A model generated the notes under the pieces. That model was not told where the DNA came from. It was given only the letters and a program-made list of their open reading frames with translations, and searched no databases. A stretch of 64,000 bases of DNA from positions 547,484 through 611,483 of the forward strand of contig NZ_LRTV01000001.1 of the NCBI RefSeq assembly GCF_003408845.1, read 5' to 3'. Source of the DNA: Gardnerella massiliensis. GTDB taxonomy: Bacteria; Actinomycetota; Actinomycetes; Actinomycetales; Bifidobacteriaceae. Shown one piece after another: positions 19,615 through 25,535 of the stretch (the first letter of the stretch is position 1; every line of letters starts with the position of its first letter). The translations under genes and the position numbers were made by a program.

Positions 19615-19651
19615 AAAAAACGGTAAGCTCGCACGAGTTTACCGTTTTTCG
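19615..19651 (+). terminator. Terminator downstream of pdxST
   Basis: AAACGGTAA-CTC pairs with GAG-TTACCGTTT around a GCAC loop and is followed by a T run (to 19649). It lies about 140 bases past the pdxT stop, between the family D repeats and array B. Confidence 0.7.
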
Positions 19652-19840
19652 TTACTCGCGCAGTTTGCGTACTGCGTTAGTAACGTATAATCCCGTTTTT
19701 TCGTTACTCGCGCAGTCTGCGTACTGCGTTAGTAACGTATAATCCCGTTTTTTCGTTACTCGCGCAGTCTGCGTACTGCGTTAGTAACGTATAATCCCGT
19801 TTTTTCGTTACTCGCGCAGTCACTCATCTGCACCAGTGTC
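19651..19840. repeat. Hairpin array B: four units at 52-bp period
   Basis: Units start at 19651, 19703, 19755 and 19807. Each has GTTACTCGCGCAG, a loop, CTGCGTTAGTAAC, then GTATAATCCCGTTTTTTC; the fourth is degenerate. The architecture, period and inner core (CTCGCGCAG/CTGCGTTAG) equal those of array A, but the outer arms are GTTACT/AGTAAC instead of GACACT/AGTGTC. The two arrays also share diverged 3' flanks (CTGCRCCAGTGTC...AGATTGC). Confidence 0.9.
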
Positions 19841-19958: not shown

Positions 19959-20186
19959 CTTTGAATTTTATGTAAGTTGCACAGTAAACGTAAACGCACA
20001 GCAAACGCAATACAATTGTAATACAGTGTAAAACGTTTATAGCATATTATATAACAGTGCAACACATTGTAGAATGTAATAACAAACGTATTTAACATTT
20101 ACTTAAGTGCAAAATACTAAATACTAAATACTAAGTGATACGAAAATCCGAGTACATATAACTAAAAACTAGTAAGGAAGCATATT

Positions 20187-20519
20187 ATGGCAATCAGCGC
20201 AACCGCAACCGCAACCGCAACGAAATCAAAGACTACAGCGAAAACCGCAAGCATCAACGTGCGCGTCACCAAGGAAGTTAAAGCGCAGGCAGAAGAATTA
20301 TTCGCCAGCTTCGGCATAACTCTCAGCGACGCAATCAACATGTTCTTACACAAGTCGCTTATGGTAGAAGGACTCCCATTCGACTTAAAGCAGCCAAAAT
20401 ACAATAAAGAAACAATCGCCGCGTTTAAGGAAGCAAATGATATTTTATCCGGGAAAATTCCAGCAAAACGCTATGACTCAGTATCCGAGATGATGGATGA
20501 CATTTTTAAGGAAGACTAA
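20187..20519 (+). CDS. dinJ: Antitoxin, RelB/DinJ family
   Basis: 110 residues. The ribbon-helix-helix N-terminus is recognisable as SINVRVTKEVKAQAEELFASFGITLSDAINMFLHKSLMVEGLPFDL, which is characteristic of RelB/DinJ. The C-terminal part should wrap the toxin. The first 20 residues are low complexity (alternating Ala-Thr, encoded by CAACCG repeats) ahead of the DNA-binding domain. The start has AAGGAAG. The toxin gene begins two bases after the stop. By analogy, the complex represses its own promoter. Confidence 0.9.
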   Translation: MAISATATATATKSKTTAKTASINVRVTKEVKAQAEELFASFGITLSDAINMFLHKSLMVEGLPFDLKQPKYNKETIAAFKEANDILSGKIPAKRYDSVSEMMDDIFKED

Positions 20520-20521
20520 TC

Positions 20522-20800
20522 ATGCTTACTTTAACATACACTTCACAGTTCAAAAAAGACATGAAGCGAATCAGAAAACGCGGTTATGACACTCGACTTG
20601 TTAATGCAATACTAGAAAAATTGCGCAACGAAGAGATTCTTGACGAATCGTACCAAGATCATCCTCTTAAAGGAAAATATTTAGGCTTCCGCGAATGCCA
20701 TGTAAAATCAGACTGGCTATTGATTTACATAATTAAGGAAAACGAGCTTGTTCTAACAGCATCTCGCACGGGAACGCACTCAGACGTGTTCAACGAATAA
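20522..20800 (+). CDS. yafQ: YafQ-family mRNA-interferase toxin
   Basis: This 92-residue RelE-superfamily protein is predicted to cleave mRNA on the ribosome. The hallmarks are LTYTSQFKKDMKRIRKRGYD at the N-terminus, DHPLKGKYLGFRECHVKSDWLLIYII in the centre, and TASRTGTHSDVF at the C-terminus, whose histidine corresponds to the catalytic histidine of E. coli YafQ. The active-site residues look intact. It is translationally coupled to the antitoxin (2-base gap). Confidence 0.92.
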   Translation: MLTLTYTSQFKKDMKRIRKRGYDTRLVNAILEKLRNEEILDESYQDHPLKGKYLGFRECHVKSDWLLIYIIKENELVLTASRTGTHSDVFNE

Positions 20801-20847
20801 CGCTCCGGCCACAACAAAATCCCAATAAACCACCACACAACTCTGCC

Positions 20848-20875
20848 CTGCCTTCGTCAATCGAGACGAAGGCAG
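20848..20875. terminator. Strong hairpin downstream of the toxin gene
   Basis: A perfect 11-bp stem CTGCCTTCGTC/GACGAAGGCAG with a 6-nt loop lies between the convergent toxin and LPXTG-protein genes. It has no T run, so it may be a weak or factor-assisted terminator, or part of the adjacent repeat element. Confidence 0.45.
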
Positions 20876-20878
20876 ACC

Positions 20879-20982
20879 TCGCTTGCGTTGAAAGCACCCC
20901 GTGCTTTCAACCCTTAGCAAGCTCGGCGCTCCGAATTGCCTTCGCGCGCTAAATCGCAGCGCTCAGGCAGATCGTCGCGCAA
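20879..20982. repeat. Dispersed multi-hairpin element, copy 2
   Basis: The core GCTTGCGTTGAAAGCAC and its complement are followed by the right-hand segment (CTCCGAATTGCCTTCGCGCG to CAGATCGTCGCGC) seen in the copies at 24580 and 43966. The right end overlaps the 3' end of the LPXTG-protein gene and supplies its stop codon and last codons. Confidence 0.85.
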
Positions 20983-23900
20983 ACGCCCCAGCAACAGCGA
21001 ACATTGAGAACAGTCCAATAGACAAGAACGTAAACATAACAGCCGACTGGCCGCCAGTATGCGGCAAAGGCACCGGCTTAACAAAGGTCTCCAAATAGTA
21101 CATTGTAGTGAAGAACACTAAAGGCGACTTTGGATTACTAATAGGCACAGCATCATCGCTATCGCCAAGTTCTGTCCATGTGCAAGTGTTTCCGCTCGAC
21201 TTCTTAAACATGATTTTATAAGTACTGCCCTGTTCTTCTTCAGGCGATTCAGGATCTACAGGAGCTTCCCCTCCTTCACCCTCGCCATCTCTTACAGATC
21301 GCGATTTCCTTGCGGATCGCAATTCCTTTACACGCGATTTCCCTACACGCGATTTCAACTTTGCACTACGCGGTTCAGAATCAGTATCAGTATCGGAAGG
21401 ATTATCAGTATCTTCGTTCGCTTGAGAATCATCTATAGTGCTTCGCAACTTTGATGCGAAACTATTTTTTACAATTCTGTACGCATAATCCTGCGATTTT
21501 TCATCCTGCTTCTTCTCTAACTTACTCGAATTATACAGTGCAGGAACATAGTAAGTATAAGTAGTACCACCCGAGTCTATATTGCAATCACATGTCATAT
21601 TGTCATTTTTTATATCGCCAGGCTCCATTAGCTTGGCTTTAACAGGAATGTAGTATGCAATATTTTTAAAATCATCATCGTTTGAAATTGTATCTAAAAT
21701 CGTAACATTATTAGTTACGACTATATTATTGCTGTGATAATTCTCATCGAGGGAGAATATTCCACCCGTAGCAAAATTACTTTTGATAGGATCATCATCA
21801 GGATGATCATCAAAACCTTGAGACTCCCATCCATTCGCAATCAACGTGCCTTTAAAACCACCAAACATACCATCAACAGAAACAGTAGTAGACTCAGAAT
21901 TAGTAGGTTTTGTAAAGTTCTTATTGCTGAAATCTAATATAAGACTGTCGCCACTTTCTGCTCCTGCATTGGAAAACATCGAACCAAGATCCGTAACTTT
22001 TGAAATATCCCACTTGCTTAAATCTGCAACGCCGGTAAGTTTTTTGCAATCAGAAAACATGCTAGACATATTCGTAACATTGCTAACATTCCACCCTTCT
22101 AGACCTTTAAGATTACCCAAGCGAGTACAACCACTGAACATGTTAAACATATTCGTTACACTGCCAACATTCCAGCCACTCAATGCACTTATATCAGTCA
22201 ATCCTGTTATTTTTATTATTACATCACCTTTTTTGTTTGTATGCTCAAAGTAGCAATCGGAGAACATGCTGCCCATGTTCTCAACACTGCCAACATTCCA
22301 CTTTTCTAGACCGCTAAGATTACTCAAGCTATGACAACCGCTGAACATGCCACTCATGTCCGTGACACTGCCAACATTCCAACCGCTCAAAGGTTGAAGA
22401 CTGGTTAAGCCATTACAACCGCTGAACATGCCACTCATGTCCGTGACACTGCCAACATGCCAACCGCTCAAAGGTTGAAGACTGGTTAAGCCATTACAAC
22501 CGCTGAACATGCTACTCATCTTCTCAACATTGTCAACATTCCAGCCGCTCAAAGGTTGAAGACTAGTAAGACTGCCACAACCGTCAAACATGCTGCTCAT
22601 GTTCTCAACACTGCCAACATTCCAGCCTCTCAAAGGTTGAAGACTAGTAAGAAAACTGCAGCCATAGAACATTCTAAACGTGCTAGCTAATTGGTCTGTA
22701 CTGCTCTTACCTGTTTTATTCCAATTAGATAATCCACTGATACTATTGAGCTTAGAGCAATATGCAAACATGCCATCCATTTTTTTAACGTTACTTACAT
22801 CCCAATTTCCTAAGCCTTCAGTACTTTCGATGTTGCCGCACAGCGCAAACATTACCATCATGTATTCAACGTTCTTTACATTCCACTTTTCCAAAAATTT
22901 AAGCGAACTCATACTCTTGCAATATTCGAACATACCGCTCATTGCCGAAACGCTTTTAGTATTCCATTCTTTCAAACCGTCAAAATCTTTTATCTCGGTG
23001 CAACCCTCAAACATTCTGTTCATGTTCATAACCTTGCTAACATTCCACTTACTTAGAGGTTCAACCGAAGTAATCGCCATCTCACTTGCATACCCTTCTA
23101 CTGGATTCAAAGCATCATGTTTATCTTGGTCCTTAATAACAGACGCGAACATTCCAGACATATTTCTAACATTGCCGACATTCCAGTTACTCAACGCACT
23201 TATATCAGTCAATCCTGTTACACCAGTGATCTTGCCATCATCATCGTAGATACGCCTAGCACAACCACTGAACATGCCACTCATGTTCGTAACATTGTCA
23301 ACCTTCCAATTAGCCAAACCTCTAATATCACTTAAACCAGCGCACCCCTCGAACATGCTCTCCATATTCGTAACCTTGCTCACATCCCACTCACTCAAAA
23401 AACTAAAATCAGTTAATGAGGAATCCTTAAATAGATAGGACATGTCTGTAACGTTACTTACATCAAACCTGTCGTCGTTGCCAATTCTACTAATATTTTC
23501 CCCTGAAAAAAGACCTTCCTTACCTTTTGACAAACTACCGTAGCCATACGCTTTAACACCGTCTCCAAAAACGATTTCGCCACCACCAGCAGGGAGAGAC
23601 TTAATTTTTTCACGAATAGCACCAAATGCGCCACTCTTCCCATTGGCACTGATAGCACATTTAGCTTCCCCTGATGAAGACGTAATCGTGACTTTAGTAT
23701 TATCCTCGTTAACTTTAGCCACACAAGCAGGAAGTGCTTTAACTTGTTCTAGGCTTAATTTCTCCATAGCCCCAGTGCTGCGATCTTGATCCTTAGCTTT
23801 TTTATCTTTGCCATCTTTTTTGGCATCTTTTTTGGCAGCCTTGCCATTAGCTTTGTCAGATTTGTCTTTACCCTTGTCGGCACCTTTGCCATCTTTTTTA

Positions 23901-24346
23901 GCGTCTTTGACAGATTTTGCGCCATTCCCAATAGTATCGCCAGCAGTTTTCCCGGCACCATTGCCAGAATTATTCTTATCTACAGACCCCACCCCATTAG
24001 GATTTTCACTATTCCCATTACCAACTTTATTGTCTGTTACTTTATTGTCTACATTATTATTTTTACCAGTTTCCCCCTTAACTTCCCCTTTAGTCTCTTT
24101 TTTATTATCAGTTTCGCCTTTAACAACTCCCCCTTTAGCCCCTTCATTACCGGCTCCCCCTTCACCCGACTTACTCTGACCCTTATCATTCTCAGTAACA
24201 GCAGCCAAGGCAGCAGCAAACAATGGATTCTTCGTTATGTTGGCATAAGCCACCCCAGGCAGCACGGTTACGCTTAAAATCATAGAAACTACGCATAAAA
24301 CGGCACCAATTGTCGAAAGAATACGATGCTTCCTACTCTCCTTCAT
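20963..24346 (-). CDS. BspA-like (DUF285) LPXTG-anchored surface protein
   Basis: 1127 residues from the ATG at 24346 (GAGGAAG four bases upstream). It has a signal peptide (hydrophobic core after KHRILSTIG). A long G/K/N/D-rich low-complexity region follows (to about residue 190). Then come about 15 BspA/DUF285 repeats with the signature L..W.V..V..M..MF..C, several nearly identical at DNA level (22360-22620). After these are a non-repeat region, an R/S-rich segment and the sorting signal LPHTGG with a hydrophobic segment and basic tail ARRSA. Sortase A-type anchoring is expected. BspA-like repeats in other species bind host matrix or act in adhesion; that role is an inference here. Confidence 0.88.
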   Translation of the reverse strand: MKESRKHRILSTIGAVLCVVSMILSVTVLPGVAYANITKNPLFAAALAAVTENDKGQSKSGEGGAGNEGAKGGVVKGETDNKKETKGEVKGETGKNNNVDNKVTDNKVGNGNSENPNGVGSVDKNNSGNGAGKTAGDTIGNGAKSVKDAKKDGKGADKGKDKSDKANGKAAKKDAKKDGKDKKAKDQDRSTGAMEKLSLEQVKALPACVAKVNEDNTKVTITSSSGEAKCAISANGKSGAFGAIREKIKSLPAGGGEIVFGDGVKAYGYGSLSKGKEGLFSGENISRIGNDDRFDVSNVTDMSYLFKDSSLTDFSFLSEWDVSKVTNMESMFEGCAGLSDIRGLANWKVDNVTNMSGMFSGCARRIYDDDGKITGVTGLTDISALSNWNVGNVRNMSGMFASVIKDQDKHDALNPVEGYASEMAITSVEPLSKWNVSKVMNMNRMFEGCTEIKDFDGLKEWNTKSVSAMSGMFEYCKSMSSLKFLEKWNVKNVEYMMVMFALCGNIESTEGLGNWDVSNVKKMDGMFAYCSKLNSISGLSNWNKTGKSSTDQLASTFRMFYGCSFLTSLQPLRGWNVGSVENMSSMFDGCGSLTSLQPLSGWNVDNVEKMSSMFSGCNGLTSLQPLSGWHVGSVTDMSGMFSGCNGLTSLQPLSGWNVGSVTDMSGMFSGCHSLSNLSGLEKWNVGSVENMGSMFSDCYFEHTNKKGDVIIKITGLTDISALSGWNVGSVTNMFNMFSGCTRLGNLKGLEGWNVSNVTNMSSMFSDCKKLTGVADLSKWDISKVTDLGSMFSNAGAESGDSLILDFSNKNFTKPTNSESTTVSVDGMFGGFKGTLIANGWESQGFDDHPDDDPIKSNFATGGIFSLDENYHSNNIVVTNNVTILDTISNDDDFKNIAYYIPVKAKLMEPGDIKNDNMTCDCNIDSGGTTYTYYVPALYNSSKLEKKQDEKSQDYAYRIVKNSFASKLRSTIDDSQANEDTDNPSDTDTDSEPRSAKLKSRVGKSRVKELRSARKSRSVRDGEGEGGEAPVDPESPEEEQGSTYKIMFKKSSGNTCTWTELGDSDDAVPISNPKSPLVFFTTMYYLETFVKPVPLPHTGGQSAVMFTFLSIGLFSMFAVAGAFARRSA

Positions 24347-24579
24347 CAATCTTCCTCTCATGTGAGCAAATCCCCTGCCGGCGCATAAACGATGCACAAA
24401 AAACAAGCGCGCATCAAAGAAAGTTCACCGGCGAACGCAATCTTTACACATAACTATTCACTAGTGTACGCCTAAATGCGAAAAATTGGTATAACAAAAT
24501 CGCTATAACAACCTACTGCAACAAACTTATAGTTCAAGTACATCTTAATTTCGCATAATTCAGTAGTAGGGATATTAAC

Positions 24580-24752
24580 GTGGCGGAGATTTGAGATTTT
24601 TCGCGCTGAGCGAAGGACGCTCGCGCGGATTGCGACGCGCTCGCTACTGAGCTTGCGTTGAAAGCACCCCGTGCTTTCAACTTGAGCAAGCTCACGCTCC
24701 GAGTTGCTTTCGCGCGCTACGCTCTGAGCGCGAAAGCAGGTCGTCGCGCAGA
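24580..24752. repeat. Dispersed multi-hairpin element, copy 3 (full length)
   Basis: It begins GTGGCGGAGATTTGAG, followed by CGCTGAGCGAAGGACGCTCG, then the GTTGAAAGCAC cruciform (about 24650-24693), then a second hairpin GCTTTCGCGC/GCGCGAAAGC, and ends CAGGTCGTCGCGCAGAC. It fills the gap between the BspA-like gene start and coaX. The remaining bases (24347-24579) are AT-rich, with no gene. Confidence 0.88.
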
Positions 24753-24767
24753 CAAATTCGCATTATA

Positions 24768-25535
24768 TTACCGCATATTACGCTTATAAATTTCATCCAT
24801 ACCTTTGAAAATCAAGTCAGGATCGTAAAAGTCAATCGTTTTCACATCCTTCTCAAACAATCTACCCAAACCGCCAGTAGCAATTACCTTAAACGGCTCG
24901 TTAATCTCAATCTTGAACTGCTCAATCGTGCGCTCAATTCCGCCCAAAAAACTGTAGTATAAGCCAGCTTGCATCGCAGGTCTAGTTGATTTTGCGAGAA
25001 CAGACTTCGGCCGCGCAATCTCAACTTCCGGAAGCTGAGCCGTGTTATCCCACAGTGCTGCAGCCGCAGTTCGAATGCCAGTGCAAATCAAACCGCATGT
25101 AATAGCTCCGCTTTTATCAACATAGTTGTAAGTGGTTGCAGTGCCGAAATCTATTACAAGCGCTGGCCCACCGTACTCATTAAACGCACCAACGCAATCA
25201 GCCAAGCAATCAGCTCCAAGAGAACGCGGCTCGTCAATTCGAATATTCATGCCTGTTTTAACGCCAGGGCCAACAATCATAGGATCAACATGCAAAAACT
25301 TTATAATACTCGCGCGGAATGAGTGCATAACTTTTGGCACTACTGACGCAACAATAACGTCCTCGACATCGCTCACCTTAAATCCGCTTAAATTAAGGAA
25401 TTGCGTAATCATAATTCCGTACTCGTCGGAAGTGCGGTTTGATTTAGTTGTCATGCGGTAGGTTCCCACAATGCGATTGTTTTCCAAAAAACCAAGCACA
25501 ATATTCGTGTTACCAATGTCGACTGCTAGCAACAT
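24768..25535 (-). CDS. coaX: Type III pantothenate kinase CoaX
   Basis: It phosphorylates pantothenate in the first step of coenzyme A synthesis. 255 residues, the usual length. ASKHA-fold motifs are clear: MLLAVDIGNTNIVLGF (phosphate 1), LGADCLADCVGAFNEY, and VIDFGTATTYNYVDKSG (phosphate 2), followed by GLICTGIR. Type III enzymes are typically feedback-resistant and need a monovalent cation. A 17-bp tandem repeat lies directly upstream. Confidence 0.95.
   Translation of the reverse strand: MLLAVDIGNTNIVLGFLENNRIVGTYRMTTKSNRTSDEYGIMITQFLNLSGFKVSDVEDVIVASVVPKVMHSFRASIIKFLHVDPMIVGPGVKTGMNIRIDEPRSLGADCLADCVGAFNEYGGPALVIDFGTATTYNYVDKSGAITCGLICTGIRTAAAALWDNTAQLPEVEIARPKSVLAKSTRPAMQAGLYYSFLGGIERTIEQFKIEINEPFKVIATGGLGRLFEKDVKTIDFYDPDLIFKGMDEIYKRNMR

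Follow-up and report, generated by a model that had tools for sequence, protein, structure and literature searches.

The locus studied here raises the question of whether a dispersed repeat has supplied the end of a surface-protein gene of Gardnerella massiliensis and, if so, whether it was recruited for the sorting of that protein. We analyzed a 64,000-nucleotide stretch of DNA (the window) on contig C1 of the 1.62 Mb genome of this bacterium (G000). An initial annotation had held that the right end of a dispersed element, placed at 20930-20982, overlaps the 3' end of a "BspA-like" gene, encodes its last residues together with the TGA, and was co-opted to finish a functional sorting signal. 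The repeat at the 3' end of this gene, called here the LPXTG gene, also adjoins a convergent relB/yafQ pair (Table 1).

Table 1 Features at the 3' end of the LPXTG gene (window coordinates)
Feature	Position	Strand	Basis or remark
RelB-type antitoxin gene	20187..20519	+	PF04221
YafQ-type toxin gene, convergent neighbour of the LPXTG gene	20522..20800	+	PF15738
Dispersed folded repeat, ~168 bp	20813..20980	+, antisense to the LPXTG gene	BLASTn, fold; left boundary approximate
DUF285/PARCEL-repeat LPXTG surface protein gene	20963..24406	-	ORF, Pfam DUF285, TIGR02167, LPXTG_anchor
C-terminus and stop supplied by the repeat (ARRSA-stop)	20963..20980	-	In place of the orthologues' 25-79-residue tail starting GRHGW
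Hydrophobic segment GQSAVMFTFLSIGLFSMFAVAGAF	20981..21052	-	Protein sequence same in 4/5 orthologues
LPHTG sorting motif	21053..21067	-	Translation; TIGR01167 over cut-off on C-terminal 94 aa

The LPXTG gene has 1147 codons counted from a TTG (the true start may be downstream). A Pfam scan of its product gave PF03382 (DUF285) at E 7.9e-118 in seven stretches, and TIGR02167 (PARCEL) matched at E 1.5e-69 in 16 stretches, i.e., the repeated units that mark PARCEL/DUF285 surface proteins are present. With these two matches, DUF285/PARCEL-repeat surface protein is a better label than BspA-like, although the BspA-type LRR_5 model still passes its cut-off (30.3 bits versus 27.7). The sequence marks of a sortase substrate are there: the LPHTG motif, the hydrophobic segment and a basic ARR tail. 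A basic tail serves to retain LPXTG proteins. The LPXTG_anchor model TIGR01167 scored 18.3 bits on the C-terminal 94 residues (cut-off 15.9) and 19.1 bits in the genome scan, but 14.0 bits, below the cut-off, in a scan of the whole protein; no Pfam anchor family matched this C-terminus at E≤1. The genome presented four sortase matches (PF04203) and 13 LPXTG_anchor matches. The C-terminal ends of seven of the latter were displayed, the LPXTG gene among them, and the other six proteins had short basic tails (e.g., RNRKK, KRRK, KRKRR) with no repeat end within 60 nt of their gene ends (best candidate, at least 5 mismatches of 14).

The repeat turned out to be longer than first annotated, with a left linker found in some copies only. 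Its end sequence CAGATCGTCGCGC had one exact match in the window and three further matches as CAGGTCGTCGCGC; these four compare with 0.22 expected and were reached by none of 100 shuffles. In G000 the terminal motif occurred 51 times at up to two mismatches (reversed control, 0) and 58 times at three (reversed control, 3), and a 106-bp core query matched 85 times at E≤1, a figure that contains many opposite-strand self-matches of hairpins. We put the number of copies at ~50, several of which lie in tandem ~180 bp apart. The terminal motif was present in all nine Gardnerella-type genomes searched, 6 to 51 times per genome (reversed control 0, save one in G009), and the core at E≤0.001 in five of 59 genomes, G000 included. 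The copy at the LPXTG gene was 97% identical to the nearest other copy and 91-92% identical to two copies over about 170 bp; where most copies carry G it carries A, which places Ser instead of Pro in the tail.

Internal hairpins are a further property of the repeat. Its gene-sense transcript folded with a z of -6.7 into several stems, and among 45 distinct cores several stem pairs varied on both sides (one pair being C-G 19 times and U-A 19 times), in a comparison where the core extraction pattern fixed parts of some stems. A repeat finder reported no repeat pair by its settings within 20700-21100 alone, though the hairpins of the repeat are plain there; the other copies were shown by BLASTn. 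A known RNA was considered and dropped, as no Rfam covariance model matched the window at 20000-25000 at E≤1. Among titles and abstract starts of the top-ranked open-licence papers on Gardnerella repeats, none was evidently on this family.

To see what the gene end looks like elsewhere, we turned to its orthologues. Among 112 same-genus genomes searched, nine gave a match; six of these (G000 included) hold the C-terminal region of the LPXTG gene, and the other three showed a weak match near the anchor only. The comparison comprised the orthologues of G009, G022, G031, G112 and G133; relatives of the C-terminal part in the Gardnerella vaginalis records PSS_7772B and KA00225, which appear to be the sequences of G022 and G133 again, were left out of the count. 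All five orthologues keep LPHTGGQSAVMFTFLSIGLFS(M/I)FAV(A/S)GAF and then read GRHGWV(A/V)SVL, running on to KHTKQR or KHAKQL. Beyond GAF they have 79 residues (G009, G022), 75 (G031, G112) or 25 (G133), versus five in G000, where the TTT codon of this Phe (20981-20983, minus strand) is directly followed by the last six codons GCG CGA CGA TCT GCC TGA, or ARRSA-stop. This ending was found in none of the orthologues. The junction is thus read directly in the contig and the native tails directly in the orthologues. The right end of the element does encode the last residues and the TGA, as the initial annotation had it, and the tail changes with the element, all orthologues running GAF-GRHGW.

Under a strict reading over 500 nt downstream, none of the five orthologues is free of flanking repeat-family sequence: each had some piece of the family within that distance, and two of them had no repeat end within 120 nt. 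An antisense copy starts 7 nt past the stop in G009; 17 and 29 bp of repeat interior lie across the stop itself in G031 and G112, respectively, with most of a repeat copy after the stop in G031; G133 presented a weak match of 37 bp beginning at ~38 nt and, at 124 nt, a variant repeat end; and pieces begin ~226 nt downstream in G022. None of the native tails, as far as the last codon, is made of repeat sequence. The repeat-interior match of G031 and G112 does take in the codon of the last Arg and the stop (CGCTAA); these may nevertheless be native, because G022 and G133 have the same CAGCGCTAA and there the match does not run on. The native codons after GAF in the orthologues (L048-L052) are GGTCGTCA, whose GGTCGTC is common to the repeat end in opposite orientation, perhaps by coincidence or perhaps as a site of template switching. 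A further group of very large surface proteins of Gardnerella (L057, L053, L060, L061 and L055) presents LPxTGG, a hydrophobic segment, FGRRGW (FGRSGW in L055) and a long extension, in contrast to the other displayed LPXTG proteins, whose tails are short.

Since all five orthologues match up to ...GAF, run on for 25-79 residues and never end in ARRSA, the repeat very probably replaced the native tail and stop of the LPXTG gene, acting as a generic C-terminal cap that is tolerated and, by chance, fits a sorting signal. A member of the repeat family would have joined the 3' end of the gene in antisense, directly behind the membrane segment (...AGAF), at the cost of the native tail with its stop. 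Read inward, one frame of the repeat end (A-R-R-P/S-A-stop) would provide a short basic tail together with a stop, so that the protein would end in a short, canonical-looking sorting tail and would probably still be anchored. Tested on C-terminal fragments, LPXTG_anchor extended over positions 2-30 with the ARRSA tail (18.3 bits) versus up to 24-26 with the five native tails (14.3-16.0 bits). Judged from this, the ARRSA tail is a plausible and more canonical sorting tail than the native one, and a shorter one, with which anchoring would presumably still work. We infer that the change was tolerated rather than selected.

The join itself was presumably made by illegitimate recombination with a copy that was already near the gene or that carried a GGCGTTT flank. 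Copies or pieces of the family that coincide with the native stop, or come within about 10 nt of it, in G009, G031 and G112 suggest that the repeat is often close to this gene and may have been so before the join. The junction reads GGGGCGTTT-GCGCGACG, and the GGCGTTT flank before GCGCGACG is common to four other copies in G000; in all, eight of 49 other repeat ends in this genome are preceded by GGNGTTT before GCGCGACG, these four included. Recombination between gene and repeat through short homology, or a deletion fusing the gene to a downstream copy, would both fit. Inspection by eye revealed no remnant of the native tail between the repeat and yafQ, which agrees both with insertion followed by deletion and with deletion-fusion. 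Given the 97% identity of the closest other copy, the fusion may be recent.

We then asked whether the repeat end closes other genes (frame 0 being that of the LPXTG gene). The survey took in all 51 ends of G000 at up to two mismatches (the last one entered by no frame of 60 codons), 90 end contexts at up to one mismatch in the other eight genomes (87 listed sites and further contexts of the same loci; for G133, 13 of its 37 sites were listed), and 44 ends without the TGA, drawn from the part of the listed two-mismatch sites that was fetched. Besides the LPXTG gene, 18 frames of at least 100 codons enter the repeat and were scanned with Pfam, frames of 60-99 codons not being counted as genes; ten were over cut-off, and the eight without a match were left uncounted. 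The same capping frame could be read directly in other genes: at eight surveyed sites the repeat end closes Pfam-supported genes in frame 0 with RRPA, RRSA or RRHA and a stop. They correspond to seven families: the LPXTG gene, DUF4125, a PucR-type regulator, ferredoxin, BirA, Maf-NUDIX and an XRE-type regulator. Orthologue endings were compared for DUF4125 (ERAQ versus repeat-capped ERARRPA), ferredoxin (PRSDKASN versus PRRPA) and BirA (YEE or YEK versus YEARRHA), and in these three families the other endings point to a swap of the same kind. The ferredoxin of G000 has the ending PQQPA, with Gln for Arg, where two other species have SRRPA or PRRPA; PQQPA is apparently a decayed cap.

Other frames are used as well. 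YceD is closed by the repeat in the second frame (frame 1) in two species; in L066 ~20 repeat-coded residues are added, and in L088 part of the repeat is masked by N. BirA of G014, identified by its place and not by a Pfam scan, is closed in the third frame (frame 2) by an end without the TGA, and birA of G022 terminates in a GCGTGA form of the repeat end that is outside the eight frame-0 sites. Altogether the birA 3' end meets the repeat in four of nine Gardnerella genomes (L170 in G031, L212 in G132, L213 in G022 and L275 in G014), where the endings vary and two frames are used, which gives the impression of a target hit repeatedly. Around position 1500 of L078 (G009), a long frame stops on the GCGTGA variant; its product, with a C-terminal membrane segment and an ARRRRA tail, gave no Pfam match and may be a second protein of surface type that ends at the repeat. 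In L132 (G132) a DUF4125 protein ends EQRPA on CAACGACCCGCCTAA, which resembles a decayed repeat end.

Frame 0 was used in seven of nine family-frame cases over all ends (p = 0.008 versus one third), with YceD counted as frame 1 and BirA once as frame 0 and once (G014) as frame 2. For TGA-bearing ends only it was seven of eight (p = 0.003 versus one third; p = 0.017 versus 12/27, a rough baseline that we counted by eye among non-gene frames). By site, frame 0 was found at eight of ~120 TGA-bearing ends, a few of which lack the TGA, versus 0/64 ends without it, one further such end being left out (p = 0.03). Orthologous sites in related species are not independent in these statistics, and the preference for frame 0 is modest. 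We tentatively consider, at a rather low probability, that the inward end of the repeat acts as a portable, self-taming cap for C-termini: since a short charged tail followed by a stop is encoded in one frame, in-frame copies at gene ends would survive, the family would spread at gene 3' ends, and proteins, surface proteins included, would be repeatedly re-tailed.

A different account, the one given by the initial annotation, is that the repeat was co-opted, its arginines being kept by selection since sortase retention needs them. The ARRSA tail does lengthen the match to the LPXTG model (see above), and the short basic tails of the six other displayed LPXTG proteins agree with such a role. 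Against it, the orthologues already have basic residues (GRH) at that place after the membrane segment, and the same cap closes other proteins that, judged from their families, are probably cytoplasmic; for these two reasons co-option for sorting is possible and not more, and we consider it rather unlikely. The PQQPA of the G000 ferredoxin further indicates that the arginines of the cap can change where no sorting is involved, which says nothing direct on the LPXTG gene, and with so close a copy elsewhere the fusion may be too recent for selection to be read. Hence, of the original proposal, the supply of C-terminus and stop and the change of the tail with the element stood, and a need or selection for sorting found no support.

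The fusion could also be a step of gene decay that left a protein no longer correctly processed, which we regard as improbable. A tail kept in all five orthologues is lost here, and the FGRRGW/FGRSGW motif and extension common to other very large Gardnerella surface proteins suggest that the extension has a role. The 1147-codon frame, however, is intact, and the sole private codon among the last 45 before the junction is synonymous (1 synonymous, 0 nonsynonymous), a weak argument as the change may predate the fusion. Mis-assembly, by which a repeat copy would have been wrongly joined to the gene, is very unlikely. The junction rests on one assembly of the species, and repeat copies lie near several contig ends of this draft (e.g., C10 and C3), but the contig continues past the repeat into relB/yafQ, the orthologue in G112 has a yafQ homologue downstream too (a weaker one in G031), and the copy at the gene has a substitution of its own (CAGATC). 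The idea that ARRSA is native and that its likeness to the repeat is a coincidence is contradicted by the match over about 170 bp and by its absence from all orthologues, and has a negligible probability. A replaced tail, tolerated as a cap, remains the preferred explanation.

Repeats that provide stops or C-termini are already known. The REP termini described in PMC3733652 give TAG stops, and the GTAG and CGTC families treated there are likewise small structured repeats abutting 3' ends; those REPs, however, are palindromes of 20-40 bp, versus ~168 bp and several stems in Gardnerella. GTAG REPs are often near RAYT transposase genes (PMC3733652), whereas the RAYT domain (Y1_Tnp, PF01797) was found in none of the nine Gardnerella-type genomes and matched in five of 14 control genomes. 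QMITE1 and QMITE2 of Coxiella are likewise dispersed and overlap functional genes at their 3' ends; according to a section heading QMITE1 copies encode basic peptides, and in one strain QMITE2 presumably supplies the last 33 residues of EnhC (PMC5896051). In the account of PMC5896051, QMITEs are miniature inverted-repeat transposable elements, and its relevant sections bring in no sorting signal, unlike the case of the Gardnerella repeat, which ends a predicted one. Among the enterobacterial RU-1/2/3 elements, RU-1 lies at the end of an amidase gene and adds about 35 residues in that case (PMC2759123), being another repeat in another host group. The body of the LPXTG gene matches the model TIGR02167 of the PARCEL repeats, but PARCEL is a coding repeat inside the protein (PMC2996958), different from the element at the 3' end. 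In their passages on gene ends, the cited REP, QMITE and RU accounts make no mention of a sorting signal.

The present locus adds a clear case, open to checking, in which a non-coding repeat has rewritten how a sorting signal ends, and its orthologues show the other state. A single repeat family capping several genes across Gardnerella species makes a small natural series on tolerated C-terminal changes, and the annotation of gene ends in Gardnerella should allow for the repeat. The window also holds a different, tandem repeat at 19640-19830, made of units with CGTTACTCGCGCAGTCTGCGTACTGCGTTAGTAACGTATAATCCCG and located downstream of a gene that we take to be pdxT-like.
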